A stretch of DNA of 64,000 nt, taken from the NCBI RefSeq assembly GCF_027942865.1, contig NC_134508.1, positions 38,065,466 through 38,129,465 of the forward strand, in the 5' to 3' direction. Below, in pieces: positions 9,948-50,219 of this stretch. A program made the translations under genes and the position numbers. The DNA comes from Odontesthes bonariensis. Lineage: Eukaryota; Chordata; Actinopteri; Atheriniformes; Atherinopsidae. Positions within the stretch are counted from its first letter, which is position 1; every line of letters starts with the position of its first letter. The notes below the pieces were generated by a model. The model had not been told where the DNA came from, did not search any database, and was given only the letters and a program-made list of their open reading frames with translations.

Positions 9948-11085
9948 CAGAATCAGAATCGCTTTTTATTGCCAGGTATGTGGACACACACGAGGAATTT
10001 GACTCCGGTTACACCTCACTCTCTTTAGTGCAACAATTACAAAAAAAATAGACAAAAAAATAGACATAGAACAAGATTAAATCAGAAGTGCAAATTGGTG
10101 CATGGTGCAAGGATGAAACACTGAAGTCCGGGTTTAGCTGTTTAACACAGAGACAGCCTGAGGGAAGAAACTGTTCCTGTGTCTTGTTGTTTTGGCGTAC
10201 AGAGTTCTGTAGCGCCTTGCAGAAGGGAGGAGTTTAAAGAGTTTGTGTCCAGGGTGTGATGGGTCTGCAGAGATGTAACCTGCCCGTTTCCTGACTGGAC
10301 AGGTACAGATCCTGGATGGAGGGCAGGCTGACACCAATAATCTTCTCTGCAGACCTTATTGTCCGTTGCAGTCTGTTTTTTTCCTGTTTGGTGGTTGATC
10401 CGAACCAAACGGTGATGGATGAACAGAGAACAGACTGAACAATGGCGGTGTAAAACTGGATCAGCAGCTCCTTAGGTAGGTTGAGCTTCCTGAGCTGCCG
10501 CAGGAAGTACAACCTCTTCTGGGCCTTTTTGATGGTAGTGACTGTGTTGGTCTCCCACTTCAGGTCCTGAGAGATTGTGGGGCCCATAAACCTGAAGGAT
10601 TCCACAGCAGACACTGCGTTGTTGGTGATGGTGATGGGTGGTAGAGTGGGGGGGCTTCTCCTAAAGTCCACTGTCATCTCCACTGTTTTTAGCGTGTTCA
10701 GCTCCAGATTGTTCTGACCACACCAGCAGACCAGCCGTTCAACCTCCCGTCTGTATGCAGACTCATCACCGTCCCGGATGAGGCCGATGACTGTTGTGTC
10801 ATCTGCAAACTTCAGGAGTTTAACAGACGGGTCTCTTGAGGTGCAGTCGTTGGTGTAAAGGAAGAAGAGCAGTGGGGAGAGTACACACCCCTGGGGGGCA
10901 CCTGTGCTGATGGTCCGGGTGCTGGATGTGATGCTCCTCAGCCTCACCTGCTGCTTCCTGTCAGTCAGGAAGTTTGTAATCCACTGACAGGTGGAGGAGG
11001 GCACAGTGAGCTGGGTATACGGGGTAGATGTCTCATGCATGACCGGTAGAGCGCCCCAGTTTAACAGCTTTAGGGGGAAATAAAT
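9948..11085 (-). mobile_element. 5'-truncated CR1/L2-type non-LTR retrotransposon (LINE) with reverse transcriptase remnant
   Basis: On the minus strand an open frame (11106-10234) encodes part of a reverse transcriptase: STGAPQGCVLSPLLF, then the catalytic FADDTTVIGL, then RLVCWCGQNNLELNTLKT and the C-terminal LRKLNLPKELLIQFYTAIVQSVL region. The last segment (RAGYISADPSHPGHKLFKLL and NSFFPQAVSVLNS) continues in another frame, so one frameshift lies near 10320. The 3'UTR runs to about 9948, ending in the common teleost tail (cagaatcagaatcgctttttattgcc on the plus strand). The 5' end is truncated, as usual for target-primed insertions. Clade assignment (L2/Maui versus Rex1) is uncertain. Confidence 0.85.
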
Positions 11086-11109
11086 TGTTGGGCACCTAAT
11101 TTGCACTAT

Positions 11110-13590
11110 AATACAGGCACCACAATGTAATCTCTCTAATATGAAAAATTACCACACCTGGGCAAAGACTGATTAGTTGTTTGAGAAAGAATATATTTGT
11201 TTTTAATAATGTATTTTTTTTTTTGGTGTCATTTTCTCATTTAAAATGTGCCTATATATTCTTTGCAGTTAGTGGGCTATTCATCATGACATTACATTAA
11301 GTGTGTCCCACTATTTCAAAAAATTATTGTATATATCGATCTATTATAATTTTTTTGTTATTAATCACTATCTCACACTCTTCTTTTTTAAAACCACATG
11401 CCATTCTGGTAAAAATGTATTCTGATAATGAAGGAAAACAACACTGGAGAAGTTTGTGAACCTAAAAACTATAAACTTCTGAATTGTTTTATAGTACAAT
11501 GACATTTTTTTTTGTGCACATTCACAGGCCTGAAACTGCCCAAGAACGCCCAGGGGCTGAGATACTCCAGTAAATATATTTGCTTTTCAACCCTGCAACA
11601 CACTGTTTTGCTTTACGGTCCCTTAACAACTTTGTATTGGAGTCTCTGTAGCCTTTTCAACAATACAACAAATTCATGTGTACGGCTGCATATGTGTACA
11701 GTTTTATTTTCATGATAGTGGTGATATATCCCACAATTGCTTGTTACATCACACTGTTAATTGCCGACATTTTTATGTAACAAAAAGGGAAAATTGTTAC
11801 AGGAAATAGCATTGACCAAAGAACGAATATAATATGTTTGCTTTAAAGGCAAAGGGTACATAGACTCTCTGATATGATTTCAAGCATCAGCGTGCACACA
11901 CAACTTCAAAGTAGGTCTGTTTTCAGGATGTTTTGTTGAATTGTAGAAGTCTTTAGACAATGAGTTAGTGGCCTAAAGTAGAAAAAATAATAATAAACTT
12001 ATGTGTAAAGAAAAACTGTGAGGACTGTTTTTTTTTCCTGATGCTACAGTATAATGTCTGTTGTATAGGTTTTCAAGAAGCAGCAAGTAAATATAACATT
12101 TTTGTCTCCCTGCTCCTCTTCATTTAGAATTTATACAATGGAGTTGTTTTAATCCCTGATCAGGAACCTTGTATTGACGTACTGCATGTGGAAAACGTTA
12201 CCTGCATCATTCTGTCATATCAGCATAGAGAAGCTCAGGTTACAATAATTGTTCACTCATCAAATAAATTCAACACACAAATTGCAACAACTGTTGATTG
12301 CATAACCATAAAGCAGCAAATTTATTGGATAATAATGGGTAGTGAGTAACAGTTGATGCCAGTGGAATCTAATAAATTCTCACAACTGGAGACTACATCT
12401 AAGAACACAGTCCTCCGAAATGCTGCAGTCACACAAACCAATATTTATCGGCCAGCATTTATTTCGTGTTCAGACTTTTAAGATGGTCTTCAAATCTCCA
12501 TCAACAACCAGTGTGACAGAAGATAGGATGAGAGTTATTTCTTAATCTCCACTGTCTTGAAAATTGTCACTGGTGGTTAAACCAGGGCTGCAGTCTCGTA
12601 GTCAAGACTAAATAATGGTGCTGCCAACACTGTTTGACTGAATATTCCACTGATAATTGATTATAAATTGCCATGTTGCTTCATGAATAGAGTACACTGT
12701 CAGAGAACTATGACAAGCAGAAAGAAGAAATATACCCGACGGTTATCTCGTGAAAAATCTGACTTAATAAACTGACGAGGCAACCCTTATTTGGGTTTTC
12801 TTGCGACTTGTTCACGGGATTAGCACTTCAGTCAGCCATCTCTGGGTTCAACTTTGAAAAAGCTCAGCGTCGTTTAGATACTTAATAGAACATTACTTCG
12901 GTAACTTATGTAGGTCATCGTATCAGTGTGCGCTACTAACGATCGTCATTACATGAACATGTGAGTCACATTTAATCCTCCTGAGTCTAATGTTTTTGCT
13001 GCCTCAGAAGTACAACTTCCCTATACATGTCCCTGTTTCTTCTCACTTCAAAGACTTCCCACATGGCTCAGAAGCCATTATGTTTTTACAAAAAACATTT
13101 CAAAGCTGCATTAGTAACCCAAATTTTAACAGAACCAGTTGCCAACCAGCTAAAGGTGATCAGGATGTCCGCTTCAGCAAGTCCAAATTACCCAAAGACT
13201 AAAGAGGCGCCATCAAGCTGTGCTGCAATGACTGTACATATCTGTTGTATTCAAAGTTGGGAGAGAAGTCTATTTTAAATCTTAGCGCATGAAATGACCC
13301 AACTGAGGGATGTCAGATTGTGCAACAGATACATATTGATTTGTAGCGCTGTGATGGTCATAGAAAAAAAAGAAAAAAAGAAAAACAACAACAAAACATT
13401 AAAACAGGGACACCATCACCCAGGGAAATATTTCCTCTTACTCAGTCGCACCTTTGCTTTCGCCTCACATCATTTTGTTTCACATGAAAGTTTTTCCCCT
13501 TAAATTTTATTTATTTTTTTTAAAATGGCACATGCAACATTTTGCATAGGTTGTTGTGACTATCATTTCATGTTTTATCCTGCTTGCTTC
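11110..13590. other. Intergenic stretch between LINE and nfs1 3' end; nothing recognised
   Basis: AT-rich sequence with scattered homopolymer runs. The reading frames here are short and lack family motifs or convincing splice context. A reversed AATAAA at 13592-13597 is a candidate nfs1 polyadenylation signal, about 445 nt beyond its stop. Confidence 0.5.
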
Positions 13591-17000: not shown

Positions 17001-20000
17001 GCAACTTCAGTAGTTTTCTGTTTCTACAATAGAACATTTCTATCCACAGAGTTTCAGCAGTGCTGTTTCCGTGTTTTAATATAGCTTCTTATGAAGTCCT
17101 TTAAACTGACACAGTGTATAAAATGGGCTCGATCAGGGCTGCCGCTGGGGGGTGCGCGAGATGAAAAATGTAATGGCGGTCTGATAATTACAGTGTTTTC
17201 CCCCCACAATAAAGACGTGTAAATAAACATTTCCTTTGTAAAATTTAAAATCAAAAACTGGAATTTTAATTCATAAAGAAATGCAGGCTATTCAAAATGC
17301 ACTAAAGGGGGGGCGGTCGGTCAGTGGCGTAGTGGGTTAAGCGGCCGCCCCATGTACAAGAGGCTGCGGTCCTCGCTGCGGCTGGCCCCGGTTCAGGTCC
17401 CGCACCGGACGGCCCTTTGCTGCGTGTCTTCCCCCTCTCTCTGCCTCCTGCTTCCTGTCTCTCTACAACTGTCCTATCATTGAAGGCATTAAAAGCCTTA
17501 AAAAAATATTTAAAAAAAAAAATGCACTAAAAGGAAGCGTAGAAGAGGTTATCTTCTTCTACGCAGTGTATATGCGCACCTCGCTTGTGGCCTCTACGTC
17601 ATTCATTCTGTCAAATATGCTCAATTGGCTGAAATCAGGGAAACTGTCAGGAAAGACATCTAAAGTCAAAGTTAGTGATGAAGGAGGAGAGGAACCAAGA
17701 GAGAGTGAGGAATCGTAGACAACAGAAGAGAGAATTGCTACGGATCCGGGAGAAGAAAACGAGCCGGAGCCGGAGGAAACCGCAAAGGAGCGAAGGAGAT
17801 GGCAACAAGACGGATACCAACACCAACCTTTGGGTCCGTAGAGCTTGTGACCGCTGATGGACATCAGATCCACTTTCGAGTCGGAGACGTTGAGGGGAAT
17901 CTTTCCGACAGCCTGAGCAGCATCAGTGTGGAAGAAAACTCCTTTTGAGCGACAGATATGTCCTGTGGACAGGAAGAGTGAAGATCAGTGAGTCAACAGC
18001 TCTGATCGGAACGGCACAGAAACACAGATCAGTCACTCTTGTTGTATTGCCATGGTTACCAATGTCCTCGATAGGCTGCTTGACTCCAATCTCGTTGTTG
18101 ATGGTCATCACCGACACCAGAGAGGTGTCAGGATGGATGGAGGCCTCCAACAGCTGCAGACACACACAGTTTATACAGTGACTTCTACATGTTATCTGTG
18201 TGCACGTGGTACATGTTATCTGTGTGCACGTGGTACATGTGATCTGTGTGTTCTTCTTTGGTACCTCCAGGTCCAGTAGCCCGTTCTTCTGGACTGGCAG
18301 GTATGTAACCCTGAATCCTTCAGCCTCCAGAATTCGACACGAGTCCAGGACACACTTATGCTCGGTCTGTGTGGTGATCACATGACGCTTCTTGGCTTGG
18401 TAGAACCTGGCCACACCCTACAGGAGAGGGACACCGGGTTAGAACTGAAGTCCTAAATGAGTTCTCATTGTTTCTGTTCTTACTATCCTCTTTTTTTGTA
18501 TCAAGTATGCTCTGTCACAGAGGAAGAAGTGTGGAGAACATTGTGCCTCAGTGAGTATGTGCTTCTACAAGCAGCAGAAACTACTCTTTCTTTACAAAGC
18601 AACAACATTTGCTGCACCAAAACATAACGAGGTGGTAGCAGCAGCAGGAAAGTGTTTGTGTCATGATGATGAAGAGGCGCTGCACAATGGGACCTTGATA
18701 GCCATGTTGTTGGACTCGGTGGCTCCGCTGGTGAAGATGATTTCTCTGGGATCTGCTCCAATCAGATCTGCCACCTGCTGCTCAGACAGACAGACAACAC
18801 AGTCTATGATTAAATTCACTTTACATTCTCAGGAACAACTCTTATTACTTAGTACATATCATCAGCAACTAAAATATGGAGCATTCATACAAAACATGGC
18901 CCTGAGTTTGATTCAAAAGCAGTTTTGGACCACTACATGAACACTTTTCAAAAATTGTTTTAAAGTGGCTAAAATCATTTAGTTTTCCATCATGTGTTCT
19001 GCTACTATCTAATGACATCAACTGTTTATCTCAAAGCAATTAACTTGTAACCTTCAAAGGCATTTCTCTGAGTATATGTTGAAATTAACATCGTGGATTG
19101 GGTTCCAAAGCCAAACACACCATGTCAATATGACAAATATAAAACTAATAAAGACATGCAATGAAACAAAGAAGATCAATCATAAATATGATTTATTTGC
19201 ATGGTAATTCCTTGCTCAAGTGTAGACAGCCCTACTCATATCAAATACCAATGAATGGCAGTGTTTAGATACGCTTGAAGCTTTTTACTTGGTTTTTCCT
19301 CTATGTGTTCAGTGTGAGTGTTGCTCTACCTTTCTGGCAGTTTCCATGGCGGTCTCACTCTCCCAGCCGTACACGTGTGTCCTGGAGTGAGGGTTACCAT
19401 AGTAATTCACCTGATACGGCAACATGGCGTCCAACACCCTGGGGTCCTAAACGCACGAAAACATTTAACTGTGAGGGCAAACAGGTGACTCCCTCGGGAA
19501 TCGAGTCAAACATGTTAAGCTACATCTTTTCTTTCTGCTTGTCACAAACAAAACAAACTACCGCTTCACACCTTCTGTGACTGATACACAAGAGAGGTCT
19601 GTTGGAAAAAAATTACCACTAAATTAGGGTTTTTTTGATGGAAAAAGACAGCTTTTAAATGATTAAACAGTGAGTTTGTTGCTACAAAGCAATTAGAAAT
19701 CCAGCAAAGGAGAAACAAACACAAACAAAGAAGACTGGGCTGCTTAAAAGAAACATTACATCAGCTGTCTGAAATTACTGCACAGGTGCTGCTCACAAGG
19801 TGGTTGGTTAACCTTAACCATTAAAATTTGCCCCACAAAGCTCTGAATAATGAATGCAAAGTGAGATTTTAATGCCGTCAAAAACAAAACAATCAGTGGT
19901 GACTTGTTAGATAACAGTTACCATAGGTGTTGTAGCCTGGAAGTCCAAGTAGAGGGGGCGAAGCTCATCTATCTCCAGTTCATGTTTCTTGATCAACTCT

Positions 20001-32038: not shown

Positions 32039-34654
32039 TCACGTGGTTCCTGCCAGCAGTGGAGAAGTTTCACGGGAATTGTTCAGACGAGGTGCCGGGT
32101 AGCCTCGGTGTGGGCTGTCGTACAGGTGGCTGCTCTGCAAATCTACCTCTGCTCGGAGTTTTATTTTCTTCATTGAGAGAGAAAGAAAGAAATAAGAAGG
32201 ATGAGGAAATGTTCACTTTGCCAATCGAGAAATTCATCTCACTTCTAGCTTTACATTATTGATCTAGGACTCCCACTTCTCGTTACTTTTAAGCACCTGA
32301 ATCAAGGCTCCAATCATTTTGAGCTGTTAAATCAAACTGAAATCAATTGAAATGTCTGCTGCAGCTGTGAAAAGGTGAGACAAAGTACCTGAAAATCTCT
32401 GATGTAGGTGAGGAAGAAGCTGATGAAGGAGAAGGCCAGAGACCATTCGGACACCGTGCTGATAATGTGAGCCGTGTAACCCTGAAAAGAAAAGAAGGAA
32501 AACATTCAAACTGCAGTAATAACGGTTCAATATGTTTTTCTCTGTCTGATACTTTTAATAACTGGTGTCTGATCAAACTGATGTTTTAGATCAGTTTCTG
32601 GCTCAGATCGCACTCTTGAAAAGGCGGTTTGTGTTCAGACATTAACGGAGAAATTTGGTTAATAAATCAAACACAGGCGACTGACCGTCTCTCCTGGGGT
32701 CCAGTGGAGTTTGCGGGGTACATCAATTCCTTTGAGACTGCTGTACATGATTACAGACGATACAAACACTGGGAGGCTGTTAAGGGTAATGCCTTATTTC
32801 TTTAGAGGAACATTTACACATACACATTAATCTTAACCCTGCTCTACAGATGGGACTCCAGCTGTCAACAGCTTTAAGGATACTGCTAATGACGCTTCCC
32901 AGGGTCCACAGTCCGATGCCAAGACGGACCAGGTAGACGGTCCTGCTGTGGACGTGCGGCTGCATGTAGAGCGAGATCAGCGTCTGAACCAGGATGTAGA
33001 GAGCTCCAACCCCGAAGGTCAGCACCGCCCCCACCAGGTGCATGGAGAACAGGGTGGTCTTCTGCTCTGACAGGCACACACACACATTCCCTGCGTACAC
33101 GTTCCACATTTCAGACACTCGAGCGGGAATGATCCCCGACCGGCAGCACTCACCTGGAAGTTCGCCACCACGCACATCCCGAAGGAGCTCATCAAGCCGA
33201 GCAGCAGCCCGAAGCGGTTCAGTCTTTGGAGTTTGAGCTCGTCGTGACCTGCTAGGGCCTCCACCTGCTTGTAACGCACGTACACCGTGGCCATGCCTGC
33301 AGAAAAAACAATTCTATCAGATAATGCGTTATAGAAACATTTATTTCACACAGAAACATTATTTGAATGAGTATTATTTCAAACTATGAGACAAATAATG
33401 GAAAACACATTCACATCGCTGCTCAAACACAGTTTCTCATGATTTGGACTCTTGTTATTTGTAAATGACCAAGACACAAGGTGGTAACCATAGTAACAAC
33501 GGGAGCGCATCACTGCCCATAAGGGGCTGAGGAGCAATATGTTGTGTTTTCAACTTTCCACTTTATTGTCCCCAAAAGGGGCGATTGAATGTGCAGCAAA
33601 ACAACATAAGCACAGAGAACAACAACAGATAACACAGGACAAACATAAAGTGCAATTAGTCAGTAAAAGGTTAAAAGGACCATAAATATGGTATACAATA
33701 AGATAAAAACATCATAAATAAATAAATAAAATAAGAAACATCATCACGCCATAAAATGCCATAGACAACACCAGGGATCAGGTCAAGTGATCAACGAGGA
33801 TGTGAATTTAAAAGGGAGATGGCACTGGGGACAAATGAATACCTAAATCTGTTGGTTTTTAAACAACATGTGCAGTAAAGTGGCAGTGGCATCCTCTACC
33901 CCACGTTGGGTCCTATAGGCAAACTGTAAAGGGTCCAGGAATCTCTCTGTGGCAGGTAAAATACACCTTTACATGAGTCTTTCAAAACACTTTTTCAAAA
34001 TGATTTATTCAAAAATGCTTAGATTAGTTTGAATTTAATGATACTGAATCAATAGATGAATGTAGTACCAAGGTTACATATTCCCTTTCAACTATGAGTG
34101 CGTGAAGCGTGAACACTCAAATGTCGGTTATGACTGTGTGGCTATGCATCTGTCCCCCAGTCACCAGTTCTGTCTGGGATTAGATGGCTGTGAACACATC
34201 ACTTTAAAGAATGACGAGTCTGAGAGTGTGTGTTTGTTTACCCAAAAAGGCTGACACGTCCAACATGATCCCAAACAAACATCTCTCCGGAGCCATTGTT
34301 CCCGTATCGCTGCGACACACAACAAAGTCAGTTAGAAGGATTCTCGCTTGTTTTCTCCAGCTGTTCAAACCTAAAGAGGCACAGTCTGAATGCAACTTCC
34401 TGAATACCGTGAAAGATCATCAGTGCATTTTTGCAGCTGTGCAGTCAGACTGTATTCTACAGGTGGTGTGTAGCATGAGGTACTGGACCCTCAGGCCTCA
34501 GCTGTGTGCGTCAAGGCTCAGACCTGATGTAAGGCACCAGAGGGTCGACATGTCTCAGCATCACCGCTGTGATGTAGGCGAAGATGAAGGACGCCGCTGT
34601 CCAGACGACCAGCGCGGCAGGCAGGAAGCAGAGACCCTGCTGGAACCACCACAT
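32039..34654 (-). CDS. dram2: DNA damage-regulated autophagy modulator protein 2 (DRAM2/TMEM77), 274 aa, 7 coding exons
   Basis: Six-pass lysosomal membrane protein of the DRAM/Frag1/SFK1 family that promotes autophagy; human DRAM2 mutations cause retinal dystrophy. Exons (transcript order): 34654-34524, 34309-34242, 33296-33154, 33061-32884, 32768-32686, 32481-32389, 32167-32039; the sum is 825 nt and in frame. It begins [20 protein letters not shown], followed by [17 protein letters not shown], the [12 protein letters not shown] loop, a [20 protein letters not shown] helix, [20 protein letters not shown] and LTYIRDFQ, then a hydrophilic tail ending SPLLAGTT. Human DRAM2 is 266 aa and shares these blocks; DRAM1 is less similar. 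The last exon diverges but keeps LRAE and SHLYD (human RVEANLHGLTLYD). The exon 4/5 junction is U12-type. Cept1 lies upstream on the same strand. Confidence 0.95.
32769..32883 (-). other. U12-type (minor spliceosome) intron of dram2, 115 nt
   Basis: The intron begins GTATCCTT, the U12 donor consensus. It contains CCCTTAAC, a near-perfect U12 branch site, at 32786-32779, nine bases before its terminal AG. It joins codon phase 1 (A|TG, Met) so the protein reads [15 protein letters not shown], matching the spacing of human DRAM2. Major-class donors nearby would not restore the alignment. Confidence 0.85.
33545..33960 (-). mobile_element. Internally deleted LINE (CR1/L2/Rex1 type)
   Basis: On the minus strand a reverse transcriptase fragment reading [17 protein letters not shown] is followed, after a large internal deletion, by the C-terminal motif [11 protein letters not shown]. 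The 3' end is about 33545 with ggggacaataaagtgg. It lies in the dram2 intron between exons 3 and 2. Confidence 0.75.
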
Positions 34655-42593: not shown

Positions 42594-45500
42594 TCAGTGA
42601 GGAGCTGAGCTGAGGACTGAGCAAGGCTTGATTTTGAAAACAAAAATGTGAAGATGGCAGGCAATCTGGTTGCAAACACTGACACAGTAACGCACCAAGT
42701 CAAACAAGGAAATTATCTGCAGAGAAGAGAGAAACAGAGTCACTCTTTTCAACCTTAAAAAACAGGAATTCTACACACTGGAAGCCCATTAAAGCCAGGA
42801 AGTAGGTCAAAATTTAGGAAAAGGAGACAAGTAAAGCTGACATGGTCATCAGTTTAAAAGTAGCCAAAACTTCCACCTTATTCTAACTTTATGCATTATG
42901 TCAGTTCTTAGTTTTTTTTTCCCCCTTTTCATGGTGATAATGAGCTTCGATGCAACACAGTCAACCATAACTGAGAAATATACTGACATCACAGATTAAA
43001 CAAACATAAATAAACACACTTTAACTCATTACAACATGAAAACTAAAGGTAAATATACAAACCCTGGGCCTGAAGGCAATACAGCCATCATCACTGTTAT
43101 CAGTTGCATTTGTGCTTTTCATGCTTTGACGTATCAAACTGTCACAAGTGCATTTACATACATCCGGCATCAAACATGTACTTACCAGTGCAATCCAGAG
43201 TACCAGGTACTCATCAATAAAACTATTGAAATACTGATCGAGGAACAGTAATCCTGGTCCCAAGAAGGCTAAATCATGAAGATGCATCTCACTTTTTGTC
43301 ATATGTGCTACCTGTAGAAAGACAAAGATACAAAACCTGCATCAAACAACAGTTTGAAAGCTGTGTGTAGTTATCTGTACAAACCACTAAAAGTCCTTAG
43401 AAGTTTTAATTTGACACATAAGTTGTGGTGCATGTGCTAACTTTGTTCCAGTCTGGTTTAGTAAACTGACTTATAAATGAAAATAGAGCATGTTTCATCT
43501 TCGATGTAATTTAATGCACATCTTGGGTGACTTGATCAGGGCAGTTATATAAGCCAAGGTGTCAGAGTTCTTTGTAATAAATCAACCAGTGAGGTCCAAG
43601 TTTCTTTATTCTACGGCACAGAATGACACAAAAGTCAGTTCTATGATGGGAAACTTCTCAGGATGTGCAAATCAGACATCTTACATAGCGAAGCAAACGT
43701 TCCAAGAGTATCCTTGTGTACATAATAAACAAAGATAAAGAGCATCAGTGTGCCTAATAACAAGAGTAATATGTCCCTTGCACAGATGCAGTCAGACACA
43801 TTTTTATTTAGATTACCATTACAGCAAAGTAATGCAGTTTCAGCTCACACCCCAAAGCACATTTACACAGGGAAATAATTGTCCCATTACATGGTAAAAG
43901 TGGCTTGTGTACAAATATGAGGGGCTGAAAATGTAAAATGTAGTCAAACACCATGAGAGAGACGTCAGGACATGTGGTTTGTTTCTCACAAATTACCCAG
44001 AAAACTAATGAGGTCATGCAAAGTTTTACACTTACTGCATGCATAGTTTAATCTTCAATGTGGATGCGAGCCTGGTATGACATGCTAAGGCTTGCCAGAA
44101 GTCAGCTTACACAGCTGGTACAAATAGATAACTGATGTAACAGAGCTCAGTGTAAGCCGTCTACTTGTTGATTGAACATCATCCAGGAGGCAAACTTAGC
44201 GACGGATGTAAACAGATTCAAAGAGCATAACTATAAAATGATGAAGATGGACCGCTGACTTCCCCCAGAATAAAAGTATGTGTAACTTACAACTAATTTA
44301 TTGGTGATTTTGGCGGATACAAAGCCAAAAGCCAGGACATAAAGACAGGGATGTTTCTCAAAGAGCTGGACAGCGGACTTCTTGTATATCATCATCGCCA
44401 AAATTATAACTGAACCAATATGTAGGACTGGTGAGAGGACACTGGTTCCCTGAGGAATGGACAACAAAAGAACAATAAAGACAATACATGGAGTACAATC
44501 AGTCATCTACTAAAATGTCATGCTTGTGGCGGGTCAAACTACATGCTAGTGTTGTAACAACAGTATTTTCTATTGTGATCAAACATTAAACTTGAGTGAG
44601 ATGGGATCTGTGCCCATGAACCTCATTTATGCACATACACCACAACAACATCATCATTCAGAAATGTGATTTGTTCAGGAAAGAGGACAGCAATTTGTTC
44701 TTGTACCACAAACAAATGAAAGGAGGCACTAAGTTTCCACACTTACCGCTATTGTGGATCCATTTTTGCCCACACCTCCTGTAAAAATAACTCTGAAATA
44801 ATTGGTGCAGGAGAAGATGGCTCCTAAAAATGTAAAGATGGCAGGAAGCATTTTCATCTGGATATTTAGGATCGGAACCTGGAAATGGAGACATTCACAT
44901 AGTAAACCTATAGATAGTAAAACAAACATTGAAACAAGTCCTGATCCGATTATAAAGTCCAGCTACTTCTGTACTTTGTGAGTACATTCAGCATTACATC
45001 CACAATGAAAGCATCATGAGCAATGTAAGAGAATGATAAAAGCGCTCAGACGGATATCATTTTGTATTTCTGATTAAGCTGTTTTACTATACCGTTAAAC
45101 AATTAAAACACAGAAGTGAGAGGAGCATTACACTTCACTTAAGATCATCATTTTATAATTATGACATCATTCTTACTATCTCAATCTGGAGGAATTAGAA
45201 CCGATCAGAATTACCAGTGACTGCCAAAAAGCTGATCCTCCCACGGCGGCCAGCAAATACATGACTATAATGAAGATTTGCACCTCAGTCACATCAATGC
45301 TGAGTGGGAGGAGAAAGCAGAGAGTTTACAGTGAGGGTTAGTATGGTCTAGTAGCACATCATCATCCCACGGTCTTCCTCCACAACACACTGCTGGACAT
45401 GGAGCTGCTTATTTTGTACTATGCATAGCCACTTTGAAGGTTGTTAAAGATGCAATCAGTAGTAAGTTGCTCTGCCAAAATTTTCTACGTCTCCACTGGG

Positions 45501-47923
45501 TTTCAAGCTAAGTGGGTCGCCTTTTAACCTGACATAACCTGTCTGGATATGCACTTCAATTATGATCGTCAGTATATCAAACAATGTCACGGCAGACATT
45601 TATGTGTATACAAGTATGGTTTTACGTTTGTTTAAATCTCTTTATAGTACAGTTTTATTAAGAACTTTTCAGAAATATTTCCTCTTGTCATTATGTAGGT
45701 TTTTGTCTTTTGTTTTGATGAGTGTCTATCGTTTCTATAAAGTCTTCAAGCTTAAATGCTTGTGTTTGGCTTTGCATGAAAATTAAACTTAAGAAGAAAA
45801 AAAGTGTTTCCAACTATACGGATGATGTTTTTTATTCATCTCTTGTCATCTGACATAAGGTAATAAAATATACGATTAAATAATAATTCAATAGCCTCGA
45901 AGTAGGTATAAACCCCACTTTATGGTTGAAAAGGAAAAAAATAAAAGGATAGAAATTGCGTTCCCTTGAGGCAATATTACCAAGAAGCCCTGTTTCACTG
46001 ACTGCATCTTTATGCGCAGCACATTGTGAATTTATTTTCTCCATGTGACTCCATGCAGGTCGGCGGCCATTGTGGAGGCAGACAGCAGTGAGCCATGCAG
46101 ACAGCAGCCAAGAGGTTTACCATCACGTTCCACAGGCAGGGACCAACAGCGGCTGTGAGCATCTGTAATCCTGCTAGACAGATCTGCACCTCTGTTATGT
46201 CAAATCTACACACAGAACACATCCACATTTACTCCACCTCAGCTGCTCATGTCACTGCTGTTATCTGATGAATGAACTAATATTACAGGACAGAAAGGTT
46301 TATCCACTTTTCAACCTCTTCTTGTCAGGCAACTGAAAAATAAAAACCTGATAACGTTCACCTGACATGTTTCTCTGTGAGCTGAAGGTGTTTCTTTCAC
46401 CAATCCATATTTTCATGCTGCTTGTCCGCTCTGCCAAACTTATAGGTGGTAGTAATTTGCCATAGAATTTGCCAAGAAGTTTGAAGGTAAATGTGACTGT
46501 CATTTGTACAAACTTCTGGGGTATTCACCTTTTACAGAAGGAAATGAGGGAGGGTGTGACGAATACCACAATGCACTCAGTATGAGTTAATCCCAAGGCT
46601 GAATGAGTGCTTATACTGTGATATTAATGTTGTATGCTGATGGCTGAATTATTAGTTTCAAGGTCCTGTGTGTAGAATGCAATCAGCGATTTATGCCTCT
46701 AGATGCACAAACTGAACACCCCCCATCACACCCTCTAATTCAGAGCAGGAAAAGCTTTGGAGGCTTCTGCACTCGAGTACAACATGATCGGGGAGTGAGG
46801 AGGGCGACTTGTAGCATTCATCTAAGGCAATGAAAACACACCAATTCTCATTTTCCCGCAATTCAACAACAATGAAATCTGCTTCTAGGAAGATCAATCT
46901 GTTGCACTCTGGAACTTTAACAGATTGGGTGAATTAAATTATTTTTTATTTAAAATATAGAATTAAAAGTTAACCAAAACAAAAGCAATGGTCAAGCACA
47001 AAGCTTTGAAGCACAGAGCTCTTAGCACTTGGCTGCAGTTCAACCTTATTTAGAGGATATGAACAACTTCACTATTGGTGGAGTGCTTTTGTGGATTTAG
47101 TTAAAAACTTATTGTGCAGGTTTTTGTCTTGAGACAACACTAAAGTATTTTCTTCAAGTAAAAATAGGCTTTTGGAGGAAGACATTTTGTTCAGTACAAA
47201 GGGATAAAAGCTGTTTTAAAGCCAGTAAGACTTATGTAAATAAAGTACTAAAAAAGCTTAGATTTGAAATGGCGGAAAATCTTTAGGACTTTGTGGACTC
47301 ACATGCCGAAGCGTAGTGTTCCTGACACGTAGGTTTGCCAGTGGGCGCAGTAGAACATAAACATCCCAGCGAAGCAGCAGAAGAACATCCAGTCCGGGTT
47401 GGTGCCCAGCTGCACTGCTATACTGGTTCCCAACACCACAAACACTGCAGAGAAAGGCACGCCAACACAGAGCGTGACCAGAGTTTAAGACTTGCAAAGA
47501 CACAGTGGAAGGGAGTCACAGGGAGTGGAAGAATCAAACTGACCTGTGGAGAGGGAGTCACAGCCATGGTCAAACAATTCGCCCAGCGGAGAGCTGCTAT
47601 TGGTGCGTCTGGCCTGCTTCCCGTCAATGGCGTCCAATGACTGGTAGATAAAAAGACCCACTGCACACAACAAGTACGCCCAGAGAGGAGCCTGGAATAA
47701 TGGACACATTCATTCAGAGCAGTGCCATCACAGCATACTTGCTTGTCGTAAACCAAGTTCATTTCTTTTTTTTTAAACAGGCAGAGTTGGTAAAAACAGA
47801 CCAGACAACCAGATATAAGATAGAGGCAACATAACAGTTAACTAATTTAATGTTCAGTAAGAGGTTTGCACGAACAGAACTAGTGAAAAGTCTGGACACA
47901 TTTATCCTTTCTTTTAGAATAAG

Positions 47924-47986
<63 letters not shown>

Positions 47987-50219
47987 GTGTGTGTGTGTAC
48001 ATGGCGGAGATGTCATTCAAGGCGTTTACCTGCCACTGGGAATGACGTGGCCTGCACATTTACATGCACAGTTAAGTTGAGCTACAGGTACAAGTTTACT
48101 GGGCCATTTAACTGGACTCCTGTTCTTTAGTCCTTGTCTCAGTTTACAGTAACGGGAATTAAATGGATTTATCAGAGCAGTGGAATCTGTGAAATGGGCA
48201 GTTTTACATCTCTGTGCACTTTGTAAGTGCTGTACACTATATTTACTTTTTTATCTAAAAAAATAAAAATAAAATAAAAATAAAAAAAGGAAGGAAGATG
48301 GACGCTACTTTGTGATTATTCTGTTGTTACCGGCTGCTTCTTCTTCTTCTTCTCTGATATGGTCTCTTCCTATTTCTTCTCTATTAAAGCCAGGCTTTAT
48401 TTCTTATGTCCTAAGTAATACTTTGCTAGGAAGCCTCAGGGTTGCTATTCAGGATCTCCTCTACATTTACTTTTGGTCTTGATAAATAATTCCATTACAG
48501 TCAAGCCATATTCGTCACTAACACCAGCTTAATAATAACATTAATCCACTATAATCTTTTTATAAACTGATGATTTACCTGTTCAGTGGCAGTTGGGCAG
48601 TAGTAGACAAGCACAAGTGTGGTAAAGACATTGGTGGCTAGGCCGATGATGGTGATGAGGTTGGGGGCAATCCAGGAAGGGACCTGTCCAACCAACCATT
48701 CCCAGTAACGTTGCATTAGAGGCTCCAGCAGGGAGCGTCCAGCACTGCTGTACCTACAGAGACCAACAAACAGCCAGGTGAGGCCCTAAGAAGTTTACTC
48801 TGGAGATTTACCTGACAAGTAGGGCCAGAAATAACGACAATGATGTAATTATAAATACTGCCAGGTGAAAAGACAGATAGGATAGAAACAGACATTTATA
48901 GCTGACATTTGTTGATCTAGACTAAAATAAAAAAGGTTATTGGCCAATTTACTGAGCAGACAACAATTAAGGCCGAGCAAAGTGACTCTTATCATTGTGC
49001 ACCAACATGTATCATTTTGGTTTTCACCGCACAGCAGTTTCAGGCAGGCAGCAACAGGTTAACGTTGTGGAGTGAAAATTATCACAAGTGAGCTGACAGA
49101 CATCCCAGCATCAACAATTAACATTTCAAAACCTCTGAATTCAGACATGTCACTCAGCGGAGGAAATATTGGCTCAGGCAGAGCCATTGATAAGAACACC
49201 AGGTGCTGTCAGTCCAAAAAGGACCCGACAAACCTGCTGCACCATAAACTAAACACCACACCAGAGTTCTCCATGACAAAGCAGACAACTTCACATTTAA
49301 ATTTAGCCAGCCACTCCTTTTTTTCCATCATCTAATCAAATTATGTTTTATTTAGAAGTTGCTGTTTGCTTTCAATGTACATTCAAAATAATGTGAGCTT
49401 GATGATAAACGTGTCTCTGTTTGTATCAGTCCTGCTTCTACATACGACTCTGTGCATGCATCTAGGTTAGAGGATGTGTCCTGCAAACTAGGAAGCAGAG
49501 TGGTCTTCAGTTATTGGAAAAAACTATTGAAATAATAACTTAACTCATAATCATTTTCTAAGGTGACAGACTATTTTAGAAGATTTAAGTGGCAGCAACT
49601 TGAAGATTGCTCAGTAAGCATAACAAACATGAATGAAAGCAGTCATTTTTATAAGATTGATGAAAAAATAAATGATCTTTGTATCTTGCACCATGTACAG
49701 CAGAGCCACTTCTAGTATGTATTTCACATAAAAGCATACGGTGTTGTCACAATAACTGGCCTATGTATGTGTTAAAGGGAAAATGTAGGTTATTAGTCTC
49801 ATACCGTTATCTAACTGTTAAAAATGCCCAAGAAAACTTTTGTATTTTTTCTATTCACCAATTATCTAAGACAGCCTCAAAACAGGAAATGGAAATTCAT
49901 GCAGCAATCAGGTAAATGTATTATTATTATTGTTATTGTTATTATCCCACAATTCACTTCTTAAGGTGGACACAGTTCAGGGAATTGCCAAAGATTAATG
50001 AAATATAACAACAGCAAAAAAACATTACCTATGCTCCTCCAGTCTCTTGAGCTGGTGTCTAGACAGTGGGGGAGAGGGAAGCTCAATCAGCCTGCGCAGG
50101 ACTCCGGGGGCCAGCCAGCAGGCTGCCTCCATGCCCATGCCTTGCCCAGGGTCCTTGTCCCGGCCAAGGCCTCGGCGAGAACGCAGGCCCCCCCCTTGCT
50201 GCTGACCCGTTGTGCTCAT
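42594..50219 (-). CDS. cept1: Choline/ethanolamine phosphotransferase 1 (CEPT1), 426 aa, 9 exons plus one alternative exon
   Basis: Multi-pass ER enzyme that transfers phosphocholine or phosphoethanolamine from CDP-alcohols to diacylglycerol, the last Kennedy-pathway step. Exons (transcript order): 50219-50029, 48753-48579, 47691-47544, 47444-47303, 45299-45215 (or 46205-46121), 44878-44747, 44449-44291, 43311-43186, 42716-42594; the sum is 1,281 nt and in frame with either exon 5. The CDP-alcohol phosphotransferase signature is complete: D145-G-x2-A-R-x8-G-x3-D163-x3-D167 (DGKQARR through FDHGCD). Other human-identical blocks are [55 protein letters not shown] and [13 protein letters not shown]. 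Human CEPT1 is 416 aa. The N-terminus (MSTTG, then Gln/Gly/Arg-rich) diverges, but the in-frame TAG upstream rules out an earlier start. A (GT)n run lies in the intron between exons 3 and 2. Confidence 0.96.
45215..45299 (-). CDS. cept1: cept1 exon 5, canonical copy (5b)
   Basis: This 85-nt exon starts after ccactcag and ends before gtaattc. It completes an Ile codon split 2+1, then encodes [16 protein letters not shown] and [12 protein letters not shown], almost identical to the same segment of human CEPT1 ([16 protein letters not shown]). It belongs to a predicted membrane helix following the catalytic helices. It is the proximal partner of the alternative exon at 46121-46205. Confidence 0.95.
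46121..46205 (-). CDS. cept1: cept1 alternative exon 5 (5a), duplicated and diverged, mutually exclusive with 5b
   Basis: This 85-nt exon starts after ttctgtgtgtag and ends before gtaaacc. It has the same length and phase as exon 5b. It reads I(split)[16 protein letters not shown], then [12 protein letters not shown]. Over 28 residues about 12 are identical to exon 5b (D, TEVQI, AAVG, W and others), and none is a stop. Joined to exon 4 (ends ggc at) and exon 6 (gttccg) it keeps the frame; inclusion of both copies, or neither, shifts it. This is inferred from sequence; no transcript was available. Confidence 0.8.
46661..46914. mobile_element. Degenerate hAT-type MITE in the cept1 intron between exons 4 and 5a
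   Basis: The left end ggtcctgtgtgtagaatg and the right end (reverse complement gttccagagtgcaacaga) resemble the inverted ends of a common teleost hAT MITE (ggtccagtgtgtaaga). The interior keeps family phrases such as aactgaacaccccccatcac and gcaatgaaaacacaccaatt. It is old and eroded; limits are approximate. Confidence 0.5.
47926..47998 (+). repeat. (GT)n microsatellite in a cept1 intron
   Basis: About 36 GT units with one interruption (gtgcgt). Antisense it would be (CA)n in the cept1 transcript. Confidence 0.9.

Follow-up and report, generated by a model that had tools for sequence, protein, structure and literature searches.

A candidate pair of mutually exclusive exons for transmembrane helix 5 of CEPT1 in the fish Odontesthes bonariensis

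In the cept1 gene of Odontesthes bonariensis, two homologous exons of 85 nt, here called 5a and 5b, lie one after the other between exons 4 and 6, and each of them alone joins these neighbors in frame. The gene is carried on the reverse strand of the stretch analyzed, 64,000 nucleotides of contig NC_134508.1 (positions 38,065,466 to 38,129,465; hereafter the window). Exon 5 encodes transmembrane helix 5 (TM5), and 5a is probably spliced as an alternative version of this helix. To the fuller reading, in which the two exons form an exclusive pair with 5b as default and 5a as a regulated exon, and in which the swap would alter the diacylglycerol selectivity of the enzyme, we give an even chance. 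Should 5a be spliced in, cept1 would supply two terminal Kennedy-pathway enzymes that differ in a helix touching the acyl chains. Nature would thereby offer a clean experiment on how membranes gain their acyl composition, with a single testable exchange in a protein whose structure is solved.

Results

Two interchangeable copies of exon 5

The exons of cept1 were placed with a human CEPT1 sequence as the query, and their edges were set from splice signals (Table 1). A preliminary description of this DNA had reported two exons of exactly 85 nt in a single phase, each preceded by AG and followed by GT, and both are present where it placed them. When the exons were joined in silico, transcripts carrying only 5a or only 5b stayed open from exon 2 to a common stop in exon 9, each giving a product of 363 residues if counting starts at the codon that exons 1 and 2 share. 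With both copies in a transcript, the second 5b codon is a stop; with neither, a stop is reached at the fourth complete codon of exon 6. This bears out the earlier claim that either copy joins exon 4 to exon 6 in frame and that both or neither shift the frame. Decay of the mRNAs with both or neither exon is expected, because their stops are located far upstream of the final exon junction. Equal length, equal phase and a frame broken by both or by neither are the marks of tandem exclusive exons.

The similarity between the copies was compared with what chance provides in the window and in the 10-kb locus of chpt1 (described below), on both strands. These sequences hold 570 stretches of 85 nt bounded by AG and GT, and in 139 of them the relevant frame is open. 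Their scores against 5b are 137 for 5b itself, 91 for chpt1 exon 5 and 52 for 5a, and the next best, unrelated frame reaches only 10; the neighboring exons 5a and 5b are homologous. When splice sites are disregarded and every 84-nt frame of the window is scored, the best unrelated score is 30 and 5a stands 7.2 standard deviations above the mean. Chance similarity is ruled out by the scoring of the AG-85-GT frames. A recent duplication was also set aside: blastn between the two regions with 300 nt of flank detects no clear flank similarity, the best piece being 24 nt inside the exon start (E 0.07) and the remaining pieces having E values of at least 0.5.

The two copies are identical at 10/28 residues without gaps (11/29 when the shared isoleucine of the split codon is included) and at 44/85 nucleotides (52%). 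The identity of about 12/28 first proposed is thus slightly too high, and of the blocks said to be shared, the AAVG blocks are one residue out of register and need a gap to align. The match of 5b to human CEPT1 is close, at 21 of 28 residues, but calling it near-identical was strong wording. The strong divergence of 5a without a stop was correctly described, since its 85 nt contain neither a stop nor an indel and the flanking AG and GT are intact.

Past coding constraint on 5a

By codon position, 5a and 5b differ at the first base in 14, at the second in 7 and at the third in 19 of the 28 codons. Free drift of 5a beside a constrained 5b should leave a smaller gap between the second and third positions. 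Neutral decay of 5a was simulated from 5b as the ancestral sequence, with both copies mutating at a single rate; the runs, 4000 each, spanned eight divergences and two levels of selection on 5b. A neutrally drifting 5a combined seven or fewer differences at the second position with 19 or more at the third in at most 0.65% of the runs at any divergence, and in 0.225% of the runs if 5a also had to remain free of stops. Neutral decay since the duplication was rejected on this basis and, because the codon-position pattern is so rarely reproduced, there is statistical evidence that coding constraint acted on 5a through much of its past.

A second comparison used five constitutive exon-5 sequences, from fish 5b, fish chpt1, human CEPT1 and two solved CHPT1 chains. 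Of the seven columns invariant among them 5a retains six, the seventh being V213 changed to I, and it agrees with 5b at 4 of the 21 variable columns (Fisher P = 0.0033 against the invariant columns). The identity of 5a to each of the five segments is 9 to 11 of 28, and human CEPT1 and human CHPT1 share 11/28. Being as distant from the five segments as these two human proteins are from each other, 5a appears to be either old or fast-evolving, and 28 residues are too few to decide between the two.

The paralog and the protein match

A search of the genome (945 Mb in 187 contigs) with the middle segment of cept1 returned six matches, of which three lie in cept1 and the other three together in a gene of contig C13. 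We take the latter to be chpt1, because its exon 5 is identical to human CHPT1 at 16/28 residues, compared with 14/28 for human CEPT1. Since the teleost genome duplication, both copies of such genes have often been retained; this search found a single cept1, with only the best candidates scored, so that a copy could have been missed. Fish chpt1 has a single 85-nt exon 5 in the same phase as exon 5 of cept1, and the 10 kb searched there contain no second, 5a-like copy besides exon 5 but only chance-level matches (E 1.8 or more). A search of the whole genome with 5a matched only 5a itself; it was insensitive, as 5b and chpt1 exon 5 were missed too. Exon 2 of cept1 had no relative in prokaryote and viral collections, as expected. 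By eye, 5a may resemble TM5 of human SELENOI (TAxVG).

The 118-residue segment encoded by exons 4, 5b and 6 matches human CEPT1 (PDB 8gyw) over its whole length with an E value of 2.1e-65. Its score of 222 bits exceeds those for the two CHPT1 chains (161.5 and 155.1 bits), and over this exon 4-6 segment the gene is closer to CEPT1 than to CHPT1. The version with 5a aligns without gaps to the same three chains (194.8, 150.6 and 149.9 bits), with an E value of 5.6e-57 for human CEPT1. Exon 3 contains the CDP-alcohol motif DxxDGxxAR...GxxxDxxxD, as defined in the text of PMC10182977. A Pfam scan of the two 118-residue middle segments gave no CDP-alcohol phosphotransferase match, only one irrelevant family far below the cut-off; the motif sits in exon 3, outside these segments.

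TM5 and the acyl chamber

The solved human CEPT1 chain has 380 residues and is modeled as residues 28-407 (PMC10156783), which places exon 5 at human residues 211-238. The preliminary description had proposed that the swap replaces one transmembrane helix next to the catalytic core. The exon duplication, the logic by which only one copy fits, and the exchange of a single helix all stand, and the location can be sharpened, since the structure's text identifies this helix as TM5, within the catalytic domain and touching the lipid acyl tails (PMC10156783). As described there, the acyl chamber is lined by TM5 residues 213, 216, 219 and 220, the acyl carbonyl at sn-1 appears to be bonded by Q217, V216A is cited as altering diacylglycerol use, and diacylglycerol entry is proposed at the cleft between TM5 and TM6 (PMC10156783); the text on Xenopus CHPT1 agrees on a TM5/TM6 slit (PMC10182977).

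Against this background, 5a retains D212, T214, E215, V216, Q217 and I218 and carries the changes V213I, F219C and I220L. Human CEPT1 and 5b have F at position 219, where 5a has C and the residues of three CHPT1 sequences are A, A and S; at position 220 these CHPT1 sequences have I, L and V, and 5a has L. A study by Henneberry, Wright and McMaster (Mol Biol Cell, 2002) reportedly obtained fatty-acyl effects from mutations in the helix 214-228 and head-group effects from Gly156, a residue encoded in exon 3. Diacylglycerol selectivity is the likeliest effect of a TM5 swap, because TM5 contacts the acyl tails and borders the proposed entry cleft; a role of the pair in acyl selectivity is what we infer by reasoning from these contacts.

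Under the reading that we favor, the tandem duplication would have left two exons that are used mutually exclusively, with 5b, which has the stronger acceptor, as the default. The weak sites of 5a would call for a tissue-specific activator, possibly RBFOX acting on two TGCATG sites downstream, and nonsense-mediated decay would eliminate transcripts with both or neither exon. The two productive forms would each be a complete CEPT1, differing from one another only in TM5, the 5a form keeping D212, V216 and Q217 and exchanging the bulky F219 for Cys and I220 for Leu, and this change in the chamber may alter which diacylglycerols are converted, by acyl length or by ether versus ester linkage. A bolder extension, which we consider unlikely, is that an ancient alternative TM5 makes the CEPT1 chamber CHPT1-like and that splicing, possibly driven by RBFOX in nerve or muscle, determines which diacylglycerols, perhaps those with ether links, are turned into phosphatidylcholine (PC) and phosphatidylethanolamine. 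The text of one source says that CHPT1 favors 1-alkyl PC species (PMC10166788).

Splice signals and alternative explanations

Several observations weigh against the favored reading, and they concern the splice signals, the reach of the constraint tests and the helix itself. Splice sites were scored with vertebrate site frequencies for 13 acceptors (nine of cept1, four of chpt1) and 13 donors (eight of cept1, five of chpt1). The 5a acceptor, at -0.69, is the lowest of its set, the other 12 running from 1.79 to 9.42 and those of cept1 exons 2, 7, 8, 9 and 5b all reaching 5.45 or more, and the 5a donor, at 0.71, is the second lowest; 17% of the AGs and 6.5% of the GTs in the window score as high as the sites of 5a. 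The low scores of both sites speak for 5a being a once-used exon that recently lost its function, with decayed splice sites, and that is now skipped, and the constraint tests, which cover the past and not the present use of 5a, set no date for the end of that constraint. Against such a loss stand the intact 85 nt, free of stops and indels and still bounded by AG and GT at the low DNA identity given above, and the donor of the single chpt1 exon 5, which at 0.12 is the lowest of the 13. Regulated exons, moreover, often have weak splice sites, and those of 5a fit a regulated exon in need of an activator and also a failing exon; overall we consider the loss of function unlikely. The column test also loses force, to P = 0.06, when any residue of the family is allowed at the variable columns.

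The search for an activator site gives suggestive evidence at most. We tested 13 motif classes in four flanks, and the pair of TGCATG downstream of 5a, which we take to be RBFOX-type hexamers, had been spotted by eye before testing. At least two TGCATG within 150 nt occur in 0.47% of such intervals, which corresponds to P = 0.0047, but this value is uncorrected and one of 52 motif-region tests, a point against the favored reading. The classes below 0.011 were TGCATG (0.0047), TGC (0.0047) and CTG-type (0.0106), all downstream of 5a, uncorrected and overlapping. A long-range RNA stem hiding the 5a acceptor was considered as well. Positions 46663-46676 and 46205-46218 form a 14-nt complementary pair (13 Watson-Crick pairs and one G-U) whose downstream arm covers the acceptor, and, the acceptor itself aside, no place in the window other than 46663-46676 matches the complement of that stretch with two or fewer mismatches; the stem of 46676-46663 with 46218-46205 has -22.8 kcal/mol, and 0/60 shuffles are as low. 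In 18 such tests, made on two sides of nine acceptors, four results were lower than every one of the 60 shuffles. Two of the four lie at exons 8 and 9, which are taken as constitutive; the pairing measure is thus non-discriminating, and the stem was set aside.

Two further explanations grant 5a a function of another kind. The stop that joint inclusion creates in 5b would allow 5a to act as a switch-off exon that lowers the amount of CEPT1, the protein sequence of 5a being unimportant; a poison exon, however, has no need of a conserved TM5, yet six of the seven invariant columns are kept and the coding constraint is seen, and 5a without 5b gives the full enzyme, which makes this explanation very improbable. 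Alternatively, 5a may be a functional exclusive exon that affects structure, location, stability or head-group choice instead of diacylglycerol selectivity. The 18/28 residues that differ from 5b, many of them outside the chamber, fit this view, as does the mean hydropathy of 5a (1.78), the lowest of six segments, compared with 2.55 for 5b and a range of 2.01 to 2.63 for the other five. According to the text of the human structure, the product PC has its head group between TMs 2, 3 and 5 (PMC10156783), and with TM5 helping to hold it a pure acyl effect of 5a is not assured. An effect on structure, location, stability or head-group choice in place of diacylglycerol selectivity seems to us unlikely.

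Gene structure and neighboring sequences

Table 1. Coordinates in the window of the cept1 coding exons and of the two hexamers downstream of exon 5a
Feature	Positions	Strand	Remarks
cept1 exon 1, coding part from ATG of MSTTGQ	50029..50219	-	read by hand; start-codon choice inferred
cept1 exon 2	48579..48753	-	human CEPT1 query and splice signals
cept1 exon 3, CDP-alcohol motif DAIDGKQAR...GELFDHGCD	47544..47691	-	
cept1 exon 4, upstream partner of 5a/5b, ends two bases into codon	47303..47444	-	
Exon 5a, 85 nt, alternative TM5 (predicted)	46121..46205	-	
TGCATG, first	46094..46099	-	from +22 downstream of 5a donor; suggestive only
TGCATG, second	46052..46057	-	from +64 downstream of 5a donor; suggestive only
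Exon 5b, 85 nt, canonical TM5	45215..45299	-	
cept1 exon 6, downstream partner of 5a/5b	44747..44878	-	
cept1 exon 7	44291..44449	-	
cept1 exon 8	43186..43311	-	
cept1 exon 9, coding part including stop	42594..42716	-	stop ends at 42594

Two further open stretches lie on the reverse strand of the window. The one at 32780-33345 appears to resemble DRAM2, and the one at 17559-18417 a cysteine desulfurase of the NFS1 type; DRAM2 lies near CEPT1 in human. A third, at 10234-11148 on the same strand, is open for 304 residues and by eye looks like a LINE-type reverse transcriptase (FADDTTVIG).

Comparison with known systems

Our limited literature search found no report of an exclusive exon pair in CEPT1, with supplements and genome-database annotation outside its scope, and an earlier annotation of the pair in fish databases is quite possible. 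A sheep study lists CEPT1 among differentially spliced genes. Exclusive duplicated exons are a known kind of arrangement, of which the CEPT1 case is apparently new within this limited search.

Among solved proteins, human CEPT1 (PDB 8gyw/8gyx) is of the 5b type, corresponding to the exon 4-5b-6 segment and unlike the 5a form, which nevertheless aligns to it gap-free. The other two chains used here we take to be Xenopus CHPT1 (PDB 8ero) and human CHPT1 (PDB 9uet). Exon 5 of fish chpt1 has the phase and the 85 nt of its cept1 counterparts, and a small residue at 219 as in 5a; the genes differ in that chpt1 has one exon 5 and cept1 has two.

The closest parallel is with the tandem duplicated exon substitution events of vertebrates, and a term search of the main texts of PMC9741552 and PMC5740500, as distinct from their supplements, returned neither CEPT1 nor CHPT1. 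As described in these texts, such events involve neighboring homologous exons that agree in length and phase, as 5a and 5b do, with a frame logic that forces one choice and swaps a homologous segment, often in membrane proteins (PMC9741552, PMC5740500). The cept1 pair is like them in each of these respects, and it differs from them in being known here from sequence, with exclusive splicing as the prediction.
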